Assembly: GCA_002723195.1 (NCBI GenBank)
Contig: PBNR01000054.1
Location: 1 to 42,631, forward strand
DNA: 42,631 nucleotides
Origin: Gammaproteobacteria bacterium
GTDB lineage: Bacteria > Pseudomonadota > Gammaproteobacteria > Pseudomonadales > Pseudohongiellaceae
Direction of reading: 5' to 3'
The first letter of the stretch is position 1; the number at the start of each line of letters is the position of its first letter. Made by a program: the position numbers and the translations under genes. Below, piece after piece: positions 10,564 through 24,196 of this stretch. The notes under the pieces were generated by a model, which saw nothing but the letters and a program-made list of their open reading frames with translations, did no database searches and was not told where the DNA came from.

Positions 10564-12828
10564 ATGAAAGCAAACGGCCCAGTTGTGAAGCATTTGGTGC
10601 TCTTAGGCGGCGGACACAGCCACCTAGCAGTACTAAAGCACTTGGGCATGAATCCCGTTTCGGGACTAGCAGTTACTCTAATTAGCAAAGACATGAATAC
10701 CCCTTACTCTGGGTCTCTTCCGAGTTACATTGCCGGTTTTCATGCACATAACGACATTCATATCGACCTGCGCCCCCTCGCACAGTTTGCAAATGCGCGA
10801 ATAATCCAGGCAGAAGTTAAATCAATCAATCTAGAGCGAAAAGAAGTTAAGCTTCCTGGCCGGCCAGCTATTTCATTTGACCTAATATCACTCAACATTG
10901 GATCTAACCCCGACGCAATTAAGATTCCCGGAGCCCAAAACTTCGCCTTCGGGATAAAACCTATTAACGATTTTATAATTCATTTTCAATCAATTCTTAA
11001 GCTCGCTGTAGAAAATTTGAAAAGTCATAAAGAATTCAACATCGCCATAGTAGGTGGAGGTCCAGCGAGCGTCGAACTCGCCTTCGCCCTACAATTTCGC
11101 ATCCACAAGGAGTTAAAGTTAAAAATCACTGATAAATCCTTGTTAAATATTAAGCTTATTAGCGCTGACCAAGAACTACTTTCTTCTCATAATAAAAAGG
11201 TCAGAAAGTTTGCAACAATAGAACTCGAGAAAAGAGGTATTGAGTTAGTTCTGGATACTCAGGTTAAGGCGTTCAAAAAAAATATGGTTGTCTGTGAAAA
11301 CGGCGATTATTTCAACGCTGACAAAATTTTATACGCGACCGGCGCAAGCATACCAAGTTGGCCAGGAGACAGTGGTTTAGCCTTAAGCGAAGATGGATTT
11401 ATTGAAGTTAACAATCATCTGCAATCCACATCCCATGATTTTGTATTTGTTGCAGGGGATGCTGCTACAATTAAAGATAAGGTCCGACCTAAATCTGGGG
11501 TATATGCTGTTCGGCAGGGAACTCCCCTGGCCAAGAACCTTGTTAGGTTTTCCACAGGCAAGCGTTTACTCCGATATAAACCTCAAGCTCACGCCCTGGC
11601 TTTGATGAGCACAGGTAATAAATCGGCAATCGCCTCGCGTAATAATATTTTTTACCACGGCCGAATTATATGGTCTATCAAACAAAAAATTGATGCCGCA
11701 TTCGTTCGCAAGTATTCCCAATTGCCTAAAATGAAAGTCTCACCACAGATCGCGGCAGGCCTAGTTGACAAAGGAACTGAACAGCAATTGATAACACATG
11801 CCATGCGGTGTGCAGGGTGCGGAGCCAAGGTTGCAAGCAATGTTTTAGCGGAAGTACTACAACAGTTACCCGTTATTAGCCATGATGACATCTTGACGCC
11901 CAGCACCATACCTGAAGATGCAGCTACGATAAAACTGAAAGACGGTAGAATACTTGTACAAAGCGTGGATCAGTTAAAAGCATTTATTAATGACCCTTGG
12001 ATATTCGGGCGTATAGCTACCAATCACTGTCTAAGCGATATATATGCGATGGGTTGCAAACCCCATTCCGCATTAGCTGTAGTAGGCTTACCTTTTTCAC
12101 TAAAAGACTATGGGCGCGAACAATTAAAAGAGCTAATGCTTTCTTGCACTGAGACTTTATCCGAACACAATTGCGCCTTAGTTGGAGGCCATTCAGCAGA
12201 AACCGAAGCAATATATTTAGGACTATGTGTCAACGGTTTTATTAACCAAGAGAATCTGCTCACAAAAGGCGGTATGCAAGAAGGCGATGTCCTGATTCTC
12301 AGCAAACCATTAGGAACCGGAACTTTGCTAGCGGCAGATATGCGTTATAAAGCCTCTCATAATTGGATACAAAGTGCCTTAGAAAACATGTTGCTATCTA
12401 ACAGGGAAGTTGCTCAATGCTTTAAAAATAACAACGCTACTGCATGCACTGATGTGACAGGTTTCGGTTTAGCTGGTCATTTAATGGAGATGCTTTCAGG
12501 GCATAATATTGAGGTAGACCTATATTTAAGCGACATTCCTGCATTAGATGGTGCTCTGGAATGCCTAGCGCATAAAATATATAGCTCCCTCCACGAAGAC
12601 AATAAACTAATCACTAATAACGCGTTTAATACGGAAACTGTAGGTTATGATGAAAAATCTGAACTTTTATTTGACCCCCAAACAGCTGGAGGCCTACTTG
12701 CTTCGATACCTGCTGAAAAAGCGGAAAAATGCCTAAAGGAATTGCGCGAGTCAGGTTCCCGCGGAGCCAAAGCTATTGGCCGCGTCACTCGAGTTGGCGC
12801 TAACGTACCATCGATTACTCTAAAGTAG
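10564..12828 (+). CDS. selD: Fusion of an N-terminal pyridine nucleotide-disulfide oxidoreductase (Ndh-like) to selenide, water dikinase
   Basis: N-terminal FAD/NAD motifs 'LLGGGHSHLAVLKHL', 'IAIVGGGPASVELAFAL', 'FVAGDAAT'; C-terminal SelD with active-site 'RCAGCGAKV', 'DVTGFGLAGHLMEML' and 'FDPQTAGGLLASI'. Confidence 0.93.
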   Translation: MKANGPVVKHLVLLGGGHSHLAVLKHLGMNPVSGLAVTLISKDMNTPYSGSLPSYIAGFHAHNDIHIDLRPLAQFANARIIQAEVKSINLERKEVKLPGRPAISFDLISLNIGSNPDAIKIPGAQNFAFGIKPINDFIIHFQSILKLAVENLKSHKEFNIAIVGGGPASVELAFALQFRIHKELKLKITDKSLLNIKLISADQELLSSHNKKVRKFATIELEKRGIELVLDTQVKAFKKNMVVCENGDYFNADKILYATGASIPSWPGDSGLALSEDGFIEVNNHLQSTSHDFVFVAGDAATIKDKVRPKSGVYAVRQGTPLAKNLVRFSTGKRLLRYKPQAHALALMSTGNKSAIASRNNIFYHGRIIWSIKQKIDAAFVRKYSQLPKMKVSPQIAAGLVDKGTEQQLITHAMRCAGCGAKVASNVLAEVLQQLPVISHDDILTPSTIPEDAATIKLKDGRILVQSVDQLKAFINDPWIFGRIATNHCLSDIYAMGCKPHSALAVVGLPFSLKDYGREQLKELMLSCTETLSEHNCALVGGHSAETEAIYLGLCVNGFINQENLLTKGGMQEGDVLILSKPLGTGTLLAADMRYKASHNWIQSALENMLLSNREVAQCFKNNNATACTDVTGFGLAGHLMEMLSGHNIEVDLYLSDIPALDGALECLAHKIYSSLHEDNKLITNNAFNTETVGYDEKSELLFDPQTAGGLLASIPAEKAEKCLKELRESGSRGAKAIGRVTRVGANVPSITLK

Positions 12829-16016: not shown

Positions 16017-16057
16017 CTGCTCGTTTTTACCTATATGCGACCTTAGTGGAGATGCCC

Positions 16058-16405
16058 ATGTCAGACGATTGCCTTTTTTGCAAAATTATTGCCGGTGAAA
16101 TTCCTTCAACCGAAGTCTACCGCGATGATGATGTTTTTGCATTTGAAGATATTAATCCCGTTGCACCGACACATACGCTAGTAATACCTGTAAAACACTT
16201 GACAGACGTAGCAGCGGCCGAAGAAGCGGATACCGAGTTACTTGGCAAATTGGTGATGGCGGCAAATAAAATTGCAGAAAAAAAAGGGCTCGTCAAAGAA
16301 GGCTTTCGCTATGTAATTAATACCGGAAACGATGGTGGACAAACAGTTTATCACCTCCATCTTCATATATTTGGTGGACGAAAAATGAACTGGCCTCCCG
16401 GTTAA
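16058..16405 (+). CDS. HIT family protein (HinT-like)
   Basis: 'CLFCKIIAGEIPS' and histidine triad 'GGQTVYHLHLHIFGGR'; likely start at the internal ATG (ORF 46..405 of this kb). Confidence 0.93.
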   Translation: MSDDCLFCKIIAGEIPSTEVYRDDDVFAFEDINPVAPTHTLVIPVKHLTDVAAAEEADTELLGKLVMAANKIAEKKGLVKEGFRYVINTGNDGGQTVYHLHLHIFGGRKMNWPPG

Positions 16406-16408
16406 ATG

Positions 16409-17488
16409 TTACAGCAGCTTGCTCAAAGACTCTGGGCTGGCTTCAAAAATTCCTTTCTCCGTAATTAGACCAGTGACAAATTCAGCAGGTGTGATATCGA
16501 AACCGTAATTGCTGACAGCGGTTTGAGAGAGAGCAATACGAACTGTCTCCATTTTTCCTTGTTCTGTTTGTCCTCTCATGTGGCTAACTTCTCTATTATC
16601 TCGTTCCTCAATAGGAAATCCTTCCTGGCCACTAAGGATAGAGAAATCGATAGTAGATACTGGCAAGGCGACATAAAAAGGAATATTGTTGTGATTGGCC
16701 GCGAGAGCCTTAAGATAAGTTCCAATTTTGTTGCACACATCTCCTGACAAGCTAGTACGATCGCTCCCGACGACACACAAATCTACCTTACCTGTTTGCA
16801 TCAAATGCCCACCTGCATTATCAACGATCAAAGTATTAGCAACGCCTCGCTCGGCAAGCTCCCAACAGGTCAATGCAGCCCCCTGATTTCGCGGTCTAGT
16901 TTCGTCTACCCATACATGCAAAGGTATACCCGCAAGTTTAGCCTTATAAATAACTGATAGGGCCGTACCCCAATCTACAGCGGCCAGAGCTCCAGCATTA
17001 CAATGGGTTAGCACATTGACTACATCCTGGGAATTTTTTTTTGACTCCCAAATGCCCCGAAGTACAGGCAGACCATTTTCACCAATTGCCTCGCATACAG
17101 CGATATCCTCTTTCTCCATAAGCTGGGCTACCTCAAGCGCTTTACCCACTATATTGTCAACTCCTTCGCCTGCAAGGAACTCTTGAACTCGTTTTAGAGC
17201 CCATTTTAGATTTACAGCCGTTGGCCTCGTCTTTGAGAGAGTATCTAATGCTTCATTGAGGCTATTAACATTACTTCGCAATGAGAGATAAATACCATAA
17301 GCTGCTGTTACACCAATAAGTGGCGCACCTCTAACCTGCATCGATGCAATTGCATAACAAACTTCATCTAGAGATTGCAAACAATTGATCTTTAACTGAT
17401 GCGGAAGCTTCGTTTGATCAATGATACAAACTCCGCCACTTTCGGGCTCAAACCAGATGCTTTGCAAATTTTTACCCTGAAAATTCAT
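16409..17488 (-). CDS. mtnA: S-methyl-5-thioribose-1-phosphate isomerase
   Basis: 'RGAPLIGVTAAYGIYLS', 'LTHCNAGALAAVDWGTALSVIYKA', 'WVDETRPRNQGAALTCWEL', 'VGSDRTSLSGDVCNKIGTYLKALAA'. ORF extends to 17533, overlapping the upstream gene; start 17488 or slightly upstream. Confidence 0.92.
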   Translation of the reverse strand: MNFQGKNLQSIWFEPESGGVCIIDQTKLPHQLKINCLQSLDEVCYAIASMQVRGAPLIGVTAAYGIYLSLRSNVNSLNEALDTLSKTRPTAVNLKWALKRVQEFLAGEGVDNIVGKALEVAQLMEKEDIAVCEAIGENGLPVLRGIWESKKNSQDVVNVLTHCNAGALAAVDWGTALSVIYKAKLAGIPLHVWVDETRPRNQGAALTCWELAERGVANTLIVDNAGGHLMQTGKVDLCVVGSDRTSLSGDVCNKIGTYLKALAANHNNIPFYVALPVSTIDFSILSGQEGFPIEERDNREVSHMRGQTEQGKMETVRIALSQTAVSNYGFDITPAEFVTGLITEKGIFEASPESLSKLL

Positions 17489-17507
17489 TTTCAAAATTAC
17501 TAGTCGT

Positions 17508-19487
17508 TTAGATAACTCGTGTGTTTCCACCATCTACGGGGAGCTGGGAACCAGTAGTTTTAGCTAAGGAGCCCCCGGCAAACAATGCAACTGCTTTAGC
17601 TACATCTGCTGATCTAACTTCCGTTTTTAGGACATTAGCGGTTTTATAGTCTTCAATACTCAAGCCATAGTGCTCTGCTCTCTCAGCAAGCACTTCCTCT
17701 GTCCAGATTGCCGTGTCATAGACAGCATTGGGGTGCACTGCATTTACTCTTATGCCGGACGCACCCAATTCGAGAGCTGCGACCCGAGCCAATTGGGTTA
17801 GACCCGCTTTTGCAGATGAATAAGCCGCTGCCCCAGGCCCAGGCGCTGGCACGTTTTTCGAGGCAACTATGACGACAGCAGGATCAAACCCTAATCTTAA
17901 AAACGGCAGGTACGCGCGCATAACCCGCATATGGGAACTTAGATTAAGCTCGAGTGATTTTTCCCAAGAATTATCATCCATTTTTTCAATTTTTTGGCTG
18001 TCAGGGAAATGTCCGGCGTTACTAACTAAGATATCAATACCGCCGAAATATTGAACACCTTTCTTCAAAGACGATCCAACAGAATCAACGTTTGTCACAT
18101 CACATTTGATGGCAAGCACATTGCCATCGGAAAATTGATTGATAAGTTGTGTATCGATATCTAAAGCGATTACTGCTGCGCCACGAGCAAGAAATTCCTG
18201 CACACACGCTTTACCTATTCCAGAAGCTGCACCGGTGACTACCGCAACTTTACCTTCAAACTCATCCCTGTTTGTATTTATTCGAAGTTTGGCTTGCTCA
18301 AGCTCCCAGTATTCTACGTCAAATAATTCTGCTCTAGGCAAAGCCTTCCACCCCCCCAGCGCTTCACCGTGCTGGATAGCTAGCACAGTATGTTGTGTAA
18401 TATCCTCAACAATTTCCAGGCGTTTCCTATTACCTGCAAAATAAACCATACCTTTGTTGTTCCAAACACCATAACGAGGCATAAGGTCTAGGCATTGATG
18501 CCCATCCTTGGCGTGTTCTGCATAATACTCTTGATAGGCTTTTTCAAAGTCACCAAGCTCAGCTGCAGGATCCTTATCAAAGATAGCCGCGAATGCCTTT
18601 GCGTAAATTGTGTGATCAGGGGTCAGAGGTCCCCGGGTTGCGAGGTCTGACACATTAGGCAACGAAGCGAAACCAGCAGCTAATTCAGAATTGTCCAATC
18701 TTACAAGTACCGGATTACCAAAAAGCTCTCCTGCAGATTTACGCAGCGCTGCCAATTGCAGACAATCATTGTCAGTGACAGAATATAGAGCCCGGATGAC
18801 AGAGCCAGAATCTATTCTACTGGCCACGAAATCCTCAGCCTTAACCACCAACTCTATCATATTGTCATAACTGATTTTTGCGTCTTCGTGAAAAGTAAAA
18901 ATACCATGATGAAGTAGAACGATACCTTTTAGTGCAGACCAATCCGCAAGTTTAGTTGCTTCTGCCACCTGTCGGGCCAACATAAAGCCAGGCATGATAT
19001 ACGGCAGAATAAGCACCTCATCTCCATAAATTTCCTTTAAGAGTTCTTGCCCATTCGGCGTATTACTTATTGTAACTATAGAGTCAGCATGACTATGATC
19101 TACATATCGATGCGGTATAAGAGCATGAAGTATTGCTTCTACTGATGGTGTCGGACCTTTTGGATCTAGCAGAGCTAGGCGCAACTGCCGCATCATCTCA
19201 AGATCACTCAGCGTTTCAAGCTCGCCTAAGCGCAGCAAATAATCTAACTGAACAGGCGGAAACCCCGCCGCGTTAATATTTCTAAGATCCCATCCGGAGC
19301 CTTTAATGAATAATACTTTTATATTATTACCAAATATTGTCTTCATCTCACCTTTTACAGAGGTATTACCACCGCCGTGAAGAACCAAATTCTCTTCTTC
19401 TCCAAGCAGATTCGAGGTGAACACTCTTAAGGCGATTTCATCGTCACCGATTTCAGCTAGCCTGTCTTCATCCCATCGATTTTTCAT
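17508..19487 (-). CDS. Bifunctional class II aldolase / short-chain dehydrogenase (RhaE-W-like fusion)
   Basis: Aldolase half: 'VLHGGGNTSVKGE', 'VDHSHADSIVTIS', 'IVLLHHGIFTF'. SDR half: 'VAVVTGAASGIGKACVQEFLARGA', 'VSNAG', 'AYSSAKAGLTQLARVAALELGASGIRVNAVHP'. Confidence 0.93.
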   Translation of the reverse strand: MKNRWDEDRLAEIGDDEIALRVFTSNLLGEEENLVLHGGGNTSVKGEMKTIFGNNIKVLFIKGSGWDLRNINAAGFPPVQLDYLLRLGELETLSDLEMMRQLRLALLDPKGPTPSVEAILHALIPHRYVDHSHADSIVTISNTPNGQELLKEIYGDEVLILPYIMPGFMLARQVAEATKLADWSALKGIVLLHHGIFTFHEDAKISYDNMIELVVKAEDFVASRIDSGSVIRALYSVTDNDCLQLAALRKSAGELFGNPVLVRLDNSELAAGFASLPNVSDLATRGPLTPDHTIYAKAFAAIFDKDPAAELGDFEKAYQEYYAEHAKDGHQCLDLMPRYGVWNNKGMVYFAGNRKRLEIVEDITQHTVLAIQHGEALGGWKALPRAELFDVEYWELEQAKLRINTNRDEFEGKVAVVTGAASGIGKACVQEFLARGAAVIALDIDTQLINQFSDGNVLAIKCDVTNVDSVGSSLKKGVQYFGGIDILVSNAGHFPDSQKIEKMDDNSWEKSLELNLSSHMRVMRAYLPFLRLGFDPAVVIVASKNVPAPGPGAAAYSSAKAGLTQLARVAALELGASGIRVNAVHPNAVYDTAIWTEEVLAERAEHYGLSIEDYKTANVLKTEVRSADVAKAVALFAGGSLAKTTGSQLPVDGGNTRVI

Positions 19488-19536: not shown

Positions 19537-19567
19537 AAAAACGCACCTTCAAATGAAGATGCGTTTT
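19537..19567 (-). terminator. Rho-independent terminator downstream of exbD
   Basis: Minus strand AAAACGCATCTTCATTTGAAGGTGCGTTTTTTATT: stem of about 12 bp with one mismatch, then a U-run. Confidence 0.8.
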
Positions 19568-19590: not shown

Positions 19591-20013
19591 CTAATTGGGC
19601 TCAACGATAGAAATATTCACCATTCCTGCTTGCCGGGCCGCGTCCATTATCATAACCAGCGTAGATACATCAGAGGCATCATTCGGTTGAATTATCACCG
19701 AAGCCGCGGGGTTTTCTGCTTTCAATTGGTCGATATTGGATCGAATTTGAGTTGCAATAATAGGGCGCGGGTTACCATTTAATATAATTTCGTTGTTAGC
19801 ACCGATTTCAAAAAGAATGTTTCTTGCATCATCATCCTCCGGCGGGGGAGGATTATCGTTATTGTTCTCACTGCTTGCTGCATTTATAGCAGTTTCTGAA
19901 AGAAATGTAGCAGTTACAACAAAGAATATAAGAAGAATAAACACCACATCAAGCATGGGGGTTAAATCGATTTTGGCATCATCTTCCGATTTGCGACCAG
20001 CAATTTTTTTCAT
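19591..20013 (-). CDS. ExbD/TolR family biopolymer transport protein
   Basis: 'DAKIDLTPMLDVVFILLIFFVVTATFL' is the ExbD/TolR signature. Confidence 0.93.
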   Translation of the reverse strand: MKKIAGRKSEDDAKIDLTPMLDVVFILLIFFVVTATFLSETAINAASSENNNDNPPPPEDDDARNILFEIGANNEIILNGNPRPIIATQIRSNIDQLKAENPAASVIIQPNDASDVSTLVMIMDAARQAGMVNISIVEPN

Positions 20014-22085: not shown

Positions 22086-24158
22086 CTATTGCGTGAGGGC
22101 CGATTCAGCTTGAGCGCGAATGTAGTGTCGCAAGGATTCAAGCTGTCTATCAGTTAAATCTCTGTAGATTGGCATACCGTTGGAGGAAAGTGCGCCATTC
22201 CTAACTACAGTTTCGAAAGCTTCACGCGACAAAGGGATACCTGACGCTCGCAAATCTGGAGCAATCCCAGCTGCAATTGCTCCGCCACCATGACACATAC
22301 TGCAAGTCCCATTAAACTCTCTTCCCCCCTCTGCCGCCAGATCTGCGTTAACGACGAAATCGGAAGAAGGCAAAGGTTCCGGAACTAATGGGGGTGCCTG
22401 TCGCGGAAGATCCAATGTTCCACTTAAAGAAAAAGCAATTAAGCGTCGTTCCTGAGCTCCATAGGACCACCCTCTTTGTGCTGCACCACGTCCACCCAAT
22501 GCAGCCATTGAACCTCCCCAACCAACTAAAAGCGCCAGATATTGTTTACCTGCCACCGAATAGGTTATGGGTGGTGCAGAAATCCCTAACCCAAGGTCGT
22601 AATTCCACAACTCTTGGCCAGTCTCTGCGTCATAGGCGACTAAATAGCCATCTGCCCTTCCCTGGAATAATAGATTTGTCGTTGTAGTCAAAGTCCCTGC
22701 ATTCCAGGTGTTATCTGCAAGCACTTCCCAAACCTGTTCCTGTCTGACAGGGTCCCAAGCCTGCAAAGACGCTGGCGCATCATTACGAGTACTGCCACCT
22801 GGCCGCTGGTTTACACCAGTACTAAGCCGCCACTGTCCCCTCTGAAATGTTTCTGTATCGATTCCCGTATCACCGTAAATCGTAGAGGTATGAATAGATG
22901 GTATATAAACGAGGCCTGTGTTGGGGTTATACGACATAGCATGCCAGCTATGGGCTCCTACTGGCCCGGGAGAAATTCTTATTGGTTCCGATTCATAGCG
23001 CACACCCGGGAGTTCTGCTGGTCGAGCAGTCTCTATATCAATGTGGGACGCCCATGTAACTTCAGTAATCTTCTCTGCTGAAACTAACTCCCCATTTATC
23101 CGGTTGATCACATAGAAAAACCCGTTCTTGGGCGCCTGCATCAGAGCTTTGATTGTTTCACCTTCAACGCTTAAGTCTGCCAACACTATATCCATATTGG
23201 AATTATAGTCCCACGTTTCTCCGGGCGTATTCTGATGATGCCAAAGGTATTCACCATTATCAGGATTCAGTGCAACTATGGAGTCGAGAAAAAGATTATC
23301 ACCACCAAAAGGACTGCGTATTTTTCTATTCCAAGGCGAACCATTGCCGGTTCCAATGTAAAGTTGCTGAAGCTCTGCATCGTAAGTCCACCCATGCCAT
23401 GAATTACCTCCACCACCATGACGCCACCATTCGCCAGTCCAGGTGTTGGCGGCCATTTCCATAGCGTCATTTTCAAACCCTTCGGCAGGATTCCCAGGTA
23501 CAATCCAAAAACGCCACACTTGTTCACCGGTATTCGCATCGTATGCGGTTACATAGCCTCTATTGGGTCCGTTTTCTGTCCCTCCGTTTCCAACCAATAC
23601 TTTTCCTTCAAAGGCTTTCGGTGCGCCAGTGATATACATCGCTAAATCCGGATCAATGGTTTGAGTACTCCACAGTTGTTCTCCCGTATTACGATCTAAG
23701 CCAATAAGCCGACCGTCCCAGGTAGCTACGAACAATTTCCCTTCCCATATTGCTATACCTCGGCTGTTGTCCCATCCTGCGCGCATGCGTCCAGGCGCGA
23801 TGGTGCCAACTCGAGGGTTAAAAGACCAAAGCTCTTCTCCTGTCTCAGCGTTTAGGGCTCTTACTACATTAAGACTAGCTATAAAATAAATAACCCCATC
23901 AACTACCAAAGGGGTAGAGACCAAACTGCGGCTATTAGGGATTGGAAAATACCAATCGGGCCGCAAACTGGATACGTTTTCTTTTGTGATTTGAGTAAGG
24001 GGACTAAATCGTTGTTCGCTATGGGTGCGACCATAGGACAACCAGTTACCATTCTGATTAACACTTGAAATAGCAACATCGTTTACCAAAGTAGATTGTT
24101 GTGCAAAAGCTCCTACACAGATAATACTTAATAGAAGGATGGTCAAAGCCTGTTTCAT
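22086..24158 (-). CDS. PQQ-dependent quinohemoprotein dehydrogenase (alcohol dehydrogenase type) with C-terminal cytochrome c domain
   Basis: Signal peptide 'MKQALTILLLSIICVGAFAQ'; tryptophan-docking repeats ('AETGEELWSFNP', 'DANTGEQVWRFW', 'DAETGQELWNYDLG'); heme motif 'CSMCH' near the C-terminus. Confidence 0.92.
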   Translation of the reverse strand: MKQALTILLLSIICVGAFAQQSTLVNDVAISSVNQNGNWLSYGRTHSEQRFSPLTQITKENVSSLRPDWYFPIPNSRSLVSTPLVVDGVIYFIASLNVVRALNAETGEELWSFNPRVGTIAPGRMRAGWDNSRGIAIWEGKLFVATWDGRLIGLDRNTGEQLWSTQTIDPDLAMYITGAPKAFEGKVLVGNGGTENGPNRGYVTAYDANTGEQVWRFWIVPGNPAEGFENDAMEMAANTWTGEWWRHGGGGNSWHGWTYDAELQQLYIGTGNGSPWNRKIRSPFGGDNLFLDSIVALNPDNGEYLWHHQNTPGETWDYNSNMDIVLADLSVEGETIKALMQAPKNGFFYVINRINGELVSAEKITEVTWASHIDIETARPAELPGVRYESEPIRISPGPVGAHSWHAMSYNPNTGLVYIPSIHTSTIYGDTGIDTETFQRGQWRLSTGVNQRPGGSTRNDAPASLQAWDPVRQEQVWEVLADNTWNAGTLTTTTNLLFQGRADGYLVAYDAETGQELWNYDLGLGISAPPITYSVAGKQYLALLVGWGGSMAALGGRGAAQRGWSYGAQERRLIAFSLSGTLDLPRQAPPLVPEPLPSSDFVVNADLAAEGGREFNGTCSMCHGGGAIAAGIAPDLRASGIPLSREAFETVVRNGALSSNGMPIYRDLTDRQLESLRHYIRAQAESALTQ

Positions 24159-24196
24159 AATCTTGCCTTCGTTGCTCCTTTTCAGATATTCCACAT

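Follow-up and report, generated by a model that had tools for sequence, protein, structure and literature searches.

A class II aldolase/short-chain dehydrogenase fusion paired with mtnA as a candidate variant of the DHAP shunt

Gene arrangement and domain composition

The locus described here raises the question of what a class II aldolase fused to a short-chain dehydrogenase (SDR) does directly ahead of mtnA, the gene for 5-methylthioribose-1-phosphate isomerase. The window analysed is the whole 42,631-nucleotide stretch of contig PBNR01000054.1, from a gammaproteobacterium of the Pseudohongiellaceae. On its minus strand, as the initial annotation had described, a gene for a 659-amino-acid fusion (17508..19487, -) is followed by mtnA (16409..17488, -; 359 amino acids from the likely start), and both open reading frames were confirmed at these positions. 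We consider it probable that this pair supplies the later steps of a DHAP shunt, in which the fused SDR removes the aldehyde, most likely by NAD+-dependent oxidation.

The two genes form a tight same-strand pair. The overlap of reading frames that had previously been described is not conserved: a 26-nt overlap requires mtnA to begin at the first ATG of its frame, at 17533 (16409..17533, -), and this ATG is not common to the relatives. The conserved N-terminus of MtnA ('..QSIW..') begins at the ATG at 17488, 19 nt past the fusion stop, which on grounds of conservation is the likely start; in the relatives, the nearest mtnA start is mostly found about 0-80 nt downstream of the fusion stop. In the gap between the fusion and an upstream exbD-like gene (19591..20013, -), a conserved neighbour outside the pathway, there is a hairpin resembling an intrinsic terminator (19538..19567, -), with 13 pairs and a T-rich tail. 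On the other side, 3 nt separate the mtnA stop from the end of a convergent HIT-family gene (16046..16405, +), which is similarly arranged in relatives. The hairpin and the convergent gene together suggest that the fusion and mtnA are their own transcription unit. Scanning the window for Rfam families and tRNAs gave no matches, and neither mtnP nor mtnBCD is visible in the window, as had been reported. The remainder of the window includes an ORF (10564-12828, +) with AIRS and AIRS_C domains of the selenophosphate-synthetase type fused behind a pyridine-nucleotide-disulphide oxidoreductase domain, and a PQQ-dependent dehydrogenase with a C-terminal cytochrome c domain (22086-24194, -) adjoining a putative cyclase gene.

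MtnA scores 387.2 bits against TIGR00512 (cut-off 279), contains the Pfam IF-2B domain and matches PDB entries 1t9k and 2yrf. The fusion belongs to the PRK08324 family, and its closest named model is NF006196 ('bifunctional aldolase/short-chain dehydrogenase', a PRK08324 subgroup), which it matches over its full length with 817.5 bits, missing the curated cut-off of 831 by 14 bits. The aldolase domain (residues 1-225; 18813..19487, -) contains Aldolase_II (PF00596) at residues 31-215, and the SDR domain (residues 410-659; 17511..18260, -) contains adh_short_C2 (PF13561) at residues 419-655, with PF00106 also matching this part. In a comparison of 32 relatives, His131 and His133 of an HxH motif and His194 are invariant and Glu117 is nearly so; we take the three histidines to be the metal site and Glu117 to be the catalytic glutamate of class II aldolases, as in the FucA family. 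In the SDR domain, TGxxxGIG, Asp443, Asn515, Ser543, Tyr556 and Lys560 are invariant or nearly invariant in the same comparison, and Asp443, at the end of beta-2, presumably fits NAD rather than NADP. The AlphaFold model of the fusion is confident throughout (mean pLDDT 90.6). Foldseek places the aldolase domain close to 3m4r, a class II aldolase domain (TMt 0.94, about 220 residues), and matches many SDRs over about 255 residues of the fusion, with alcohol and ketone SDRs as the best PDB folds; this search of the fusion model gave no functional hint closer than that from the sequence.

Comparison with RhaEW

A class II aldolase fused to an SDR, with catalytic residues intact, is a feature that the fusion shares with RhaEW (YuxG), the rhamnulose-1-P aldolase/lactaldehyde dehydrogenase, which has the same two domains and catalytic motifs and provides the precedent for a reaction pulled by NAD+. 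The resemblance to RhaEW drawn in the initial annotation is therefore apt for the architecture, whereas membership of the RhaEW family is not borne out: the fusion scores 407.9 bits against TIGR02632 (cut-off 567.75) and is only 32% identical to a RhaEW from the same genus. A genome-wide search for the RhaA family alone (PF06134) gave nothing above the cut-off in the window's own genome, and no rhamnose isomerase lies beside the fusion. Identification of the fusion as RhaEW was rejected on the score, the identity and the lack of RhaA.

It is nevertheless conceivable that the fusion, next to mtnA only incidentally, acts in the manner of RhaEW on L-rhamnulose-1-P or some other deoxy-sugar phosphate, given the shared architecture, the common PRK08324 superfamily and a Saprospiraceae relative located in an unrelated sugar-type cluster. 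Beyond the low TIGR02632 score and the lack of RhaA, evidence against this comes from one relative (G002) that holds both a true RhaEW (1050 bits), next to a rhamnose isomerase (RhaI family, TIGR02629), and a separate mtnA-linked fusion, showing that these are distinct genes, each with its own partner; the low identity between the two types and an mtnA linkage that appears to have arisen at least twice (see below) also count against it. Such a role is very unlikely.

Conservation of the gene pair

The pair was followed through a group of 37 genomes, consisting of the window's own and 36 relatives placed in the same genus by search, among them Pseudohongiella, OM182 and related MAGs. In 30 of the 37 the fusion immediately precedes mtnA and shares its strand, an arrangement that is far from chance, and no genome of the group has the fusion without mtnA. 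Two genomes keep mtnA beside a broken fusion, with assembly error possible in both: in G013 a decayed fusion adjoins an intact mtnA (L117:3800-4610), and in G033 a 58-codon remnant joining both ends of the fusion lies beside an intact mtnA (L179:7440-7616). Three incomplete genomes (G019, G028 and G034) have neither gene, and in G008 and G032 the contig ends at the locus, so that the status of the pair is not assignable. Apparent breaks in the fusions of G010 and G023 were rejected as mutations, and correspond to runs of unread or masked bases.

A different cluster is present in G013 (L118:4268-9530) and G008 (L119:1073-6334), comprising a FucA-type aldolase, a divergent MtnA-like protein and an MTAP-like phosphorylase, along with genes for a methionine-gamma-lyase-like enzyme and an amino-acid permease. 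In G013 this cluster goes together with the loss of the fusion, which is only suggestive, as it concerns a single lineage whose MtnA-like gene is split over two frames. G010 has another class II aldolase (L129:1344-2000) with a neighbour that by eye resembles the four-carbon acid sugar kinase family, and this locus probably represents a four-carbon acid sugar pathway.

Co-occurrence extends to the class as a whole. Among 369 gammaproteobacterial genomes, mtnA is found in 55 of the 60 that have the fusion (five show no mtnA) and in 173 of the 309 that do not (Fisher p 3e-8). With one genome per family, a sampling that gives a partial rather than a full phylogenetic correction, the positive association is retained (157 families; 23/24 versus 70/133; p 2.5e-5).

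Pathway genes elsewhere in the genome

Family searches of the window's own genome found no acireductone dioxygenase (ARD/MtnD, PF03079) and no second class II aldolase (PF00596), including the MtnB type, leaving the fusion as the only one. This genome is 85% complete, and the absences therefore lean on relatives of 97-100% completeness: none of the 37 group genomes, several of them in that range, has an ARD above the cut-off. The initial annotation had named a rhamnose isomerase/kinase set or a complete mtnBCD pathway elsewhere in the genome as findings that would argue against its proposal, and the genome yielded no RhaA, MtnD or MtnB-type aldolase.

Ordinary methionine salvage was rejected for this genome on the lack of MtnD and of a second class II aldolase. 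A version of it in which mtnBCD were missed and the fusion has some other job might draw on the incompleteness of the genome and on the many fusion-bearing genomes of the class that do have ARD. Set against the absence of ARD throughout the group, the lack of an MtnB-type aldolase and the conserved pairing of mtnA with the fusion, it is extremely improbable.

The only PNP_UDP_1 protein in the genome is an S-methyl-5'-thioinosine (MTI) phosphorylase (NF006599, 294 bits, cut-off 223), the gene for which is cut by a contig end; its PDB relative, 3ozb, was reached via the homologue in G012. There is also an MTA/SAH-deaminase-like protein (NF006549, 640 bits, cut-off 540), whose nearest PDB matches are amidohydrolases, among them 4f0r, which is named as an MTA/SAH deaminase. 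Both genes lie elsewhere in the genome, unlinked to the fusion and mtnA, and the deaminase type adjoins mtnA in several members of the class. With these two genes alongside mtnA and the fusion, a route from MTA via MTI and MTR-1-P to MtnA and the fusion is gene-complete. The earlier description of a two-gene module thus needs widening, since the pathway also requires the unlinked phosphorylase.

Known shunts and independent linkage

In the MtnP/MtnA/Ald2 DHAP shunt of Rhodospirillum rubrum, Rhodopseudomonas palustris and E. coli ATCC 25922, MtnA is likewise followed by a class II aldolase. Deoxynucleoside phosphorolysis upstream and the lack of MtnD in the window's genome are further likenesses, and both an MtnA-type isomerase (TIGR00512) and a phosphorylase predicted to make a 5-substituted ribose-1-phosphate (NF006599) are present here. 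Ald2, however, is a FucA-type protein of 210-220 amino acids, whereas here a PRK08324-type aldolase domain is fused to an SDR, and in place of MtnP the upstream route looks like a deaminase and an MTI phosphorylase. Apart from the fusion, the genome has no PF00596 protein and no stand-alone FucA-like Ald2/DrdA aldolase; the pair works like a DHAP shunt and fails one defining feature of strict membership, the stand-alone Ald2.

The drdK-drdI-drdA system for 5-deoxyribose disposal in Bacillus thuringiensis also pairs an isomerase with a class II aldolase, the same chemistry as proposed here, but no kinase gene is present in the fusion-mtnA unit. In one fusion-negative genome (G066), an mtnA of the window's subtype overlaps a gene for a FucA-type aldolase that matches 6btd (166.9 bits), the structure of DrdA (PMC6079011). 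A DrdA-like aldolase there takes the place of the fusion beside the same MtnA type, so that one MtnA type pairs with either aldolase type; a BLASTP comparison of the G066 aldolase with the fusion aldolase gave no significant match. Gammaproteobacterial MtnA sequences (seen in L191-L210 and L016-L045) fall into two deep types. The window's type is common to G066 and the alphaproteobacterial gene row described next, and several sequences of the other type adjoin an MTA deaminase.

That row is found in MarineAlpha5 (L012), an alphaproteobacterium, in the order MTAP-mtnA-fusion, with the genes adjoining or slightly overlapping and the phosphorylase just reaching the MTAP cut-off (275.8 versus 274.85). 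The fusion there is 33% identical to the window's and is placed in a different clade, where L012 is a long branch whose exact position is unsure; no mtnA was seen within 1.5 kb of the fusions that share this clade. The association of fusion and mtnA consequently appears to have arisen at least twice. Directly after the row (L012:4079-4495) there is a gene for a 138-amino-acid protein, cupin-like by eye, with no NCBIfam match.

Proposed pathway

The core of the initial annotation's proposal, a variant DHAP shunt acting through the fusion, is supported by the lack of MtnD, RhaA and any other class II aldolase, by the phosphorylase and deaminase, by the MarineAlpha5 row and the aldolase exchange in G066, and by the co-occurrence data; its substrates and the direction of the SDR reaction, along with the order of steps, are ones that we infer. 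By homology, the deaminase and MTI phosphorylase would convert MTA to 5-methylthioribose-1-phosphate, which MtnA would isomerise to 5-methylthioribulose-1-phosphate. The aldolase domain would then cleave this to DHAP and 2-(methylthio)acetaldehyde, and the 5-deoxy analogue to acetaldehyde, 5'-deoxyadenosine probably being a second SAM by-product handled in addition to MTA. Lactaldehyde had been suggested as a product from 5-deoxyribulose-1-P; the product is acetaldehyde (PMC6079011).

The aldehyde would be removed immediately by the fused SDR, which most likely oxidises it to the acid with NAD+, as RhaEW does. Against this reading, interconversion of alcohols and carbonyls is in general a more frequent SDR activity than the oxidation of aldehydes to acids. 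It may instead be that the shunt operates as proposed but with a reductive last step, in which the SDR uses NADH to turn the aldehyde into 2-(methylthio)ethanol or ethanol and so stands in for the alcohol dehydrogenase of the known pathway; SDRs often act as carbonyl reductases, and the best PDB folds for this domain are alcohol and ketone SDRs. The RhaEW precedent and the presumed NAD-type Asp443, which is taken to speak against reduction, lead us to favour oxidation. Rhodopseudomonas and E. coli have indeed been seen to form 2-(methylthio)ethanol through an unassigned alcohol dehydrogenase (PMC5893883, PMC10986504), but the only measured fusions, the RhaEW proteins of Chloroflexus and Bacillus, oxidise with NAD+, and in RhaEW without NAD+ neither DHAP nor lactate was formed, the SDR making the acid (PMC3870299). 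Reduction is thus an unlikely direction for the fused SDR.

Oxidative removal of the aldehyde would both detoxify it and pull the aldol cleavage, for which the equilibrium favours condensation (constant about 1e-4; PMC6079011). In the known shunt the aldehyde step is left to a putative alcohol dehydrogenase (PMC5893883), and fusing a dehydrogenase to the aldolase would take care of the reactive product and of the uphill cleavage alike. The pathway would also explain the handling of MTA in marine bacteria with mtnA but without MtnD, and predicts that (methylthio)acetate or (methylthio)ethanol is released instead of methionine being recycled directly. The open-access literature searched (subscription literature was outside its scope) contained no report of the fusion as part of the DHAP shunt.

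Distribution beyond the group

Across the class, ARD is commoner with the fusion (25/60 genomes) than without it (50/309), and a class-wide rule that the fusion excludes ARD was rejected as false. This enrichment suggests that some homologues, found beside a normal methionine salvage pathway, may act on a different substrate. In the loci read outside the group, the fusion stands alone, with no conserved neighbours in 17 class genomes, and among its closest relatives in the class (47-51% identity across the aldolase part) ARD is present in one of eight. These three observations make a specialised use of the fusion the best reading for the mtnA-linked clade.

That class homologues occur alongside ARD, in genomes already able to process MTA, also bears on the choice of substrate. 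The main substrate could be 5-deoxyribulose-1-P, derived from the 5'-deoxyadenosine of radical-SAM enzymes and cleaved to DHAP and acetaldehyde, with MTA secondary, and DrdA does prefer acetaldehyde (PMC6079011). This is possible but doubtful, as no other route for MTA is visible in the window's own genome and the unlinked enzymes resemble an MTI phosphorylase and an MTA/SAH deaminase. For the broad PRK08324 branch, in Gammaproteobacteria and independently in marine Alphaproteobacteria, we lean slightly towards a bifunctional enzyme that is both a 5-(methylthio)ribulose-1-P/5-deoxyribulose-1-P aldolase and an aldehyde dehydrogenase, its products being DHAP, NADH and either (methylthio)acetate or acetate. 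A widespread family whose annotation goes no further than 'bifunctional aldolase/short-chain dehydrogenase' would thereby gain a function.

A Saprospiraceae MAG (L013:1-4174) also has a fusion relative (57% across the SDR half) in another context, where the downstream genes look, by eye, like those for Tm-1-type and sugar-phosphate isomerase/epimerase proteins.
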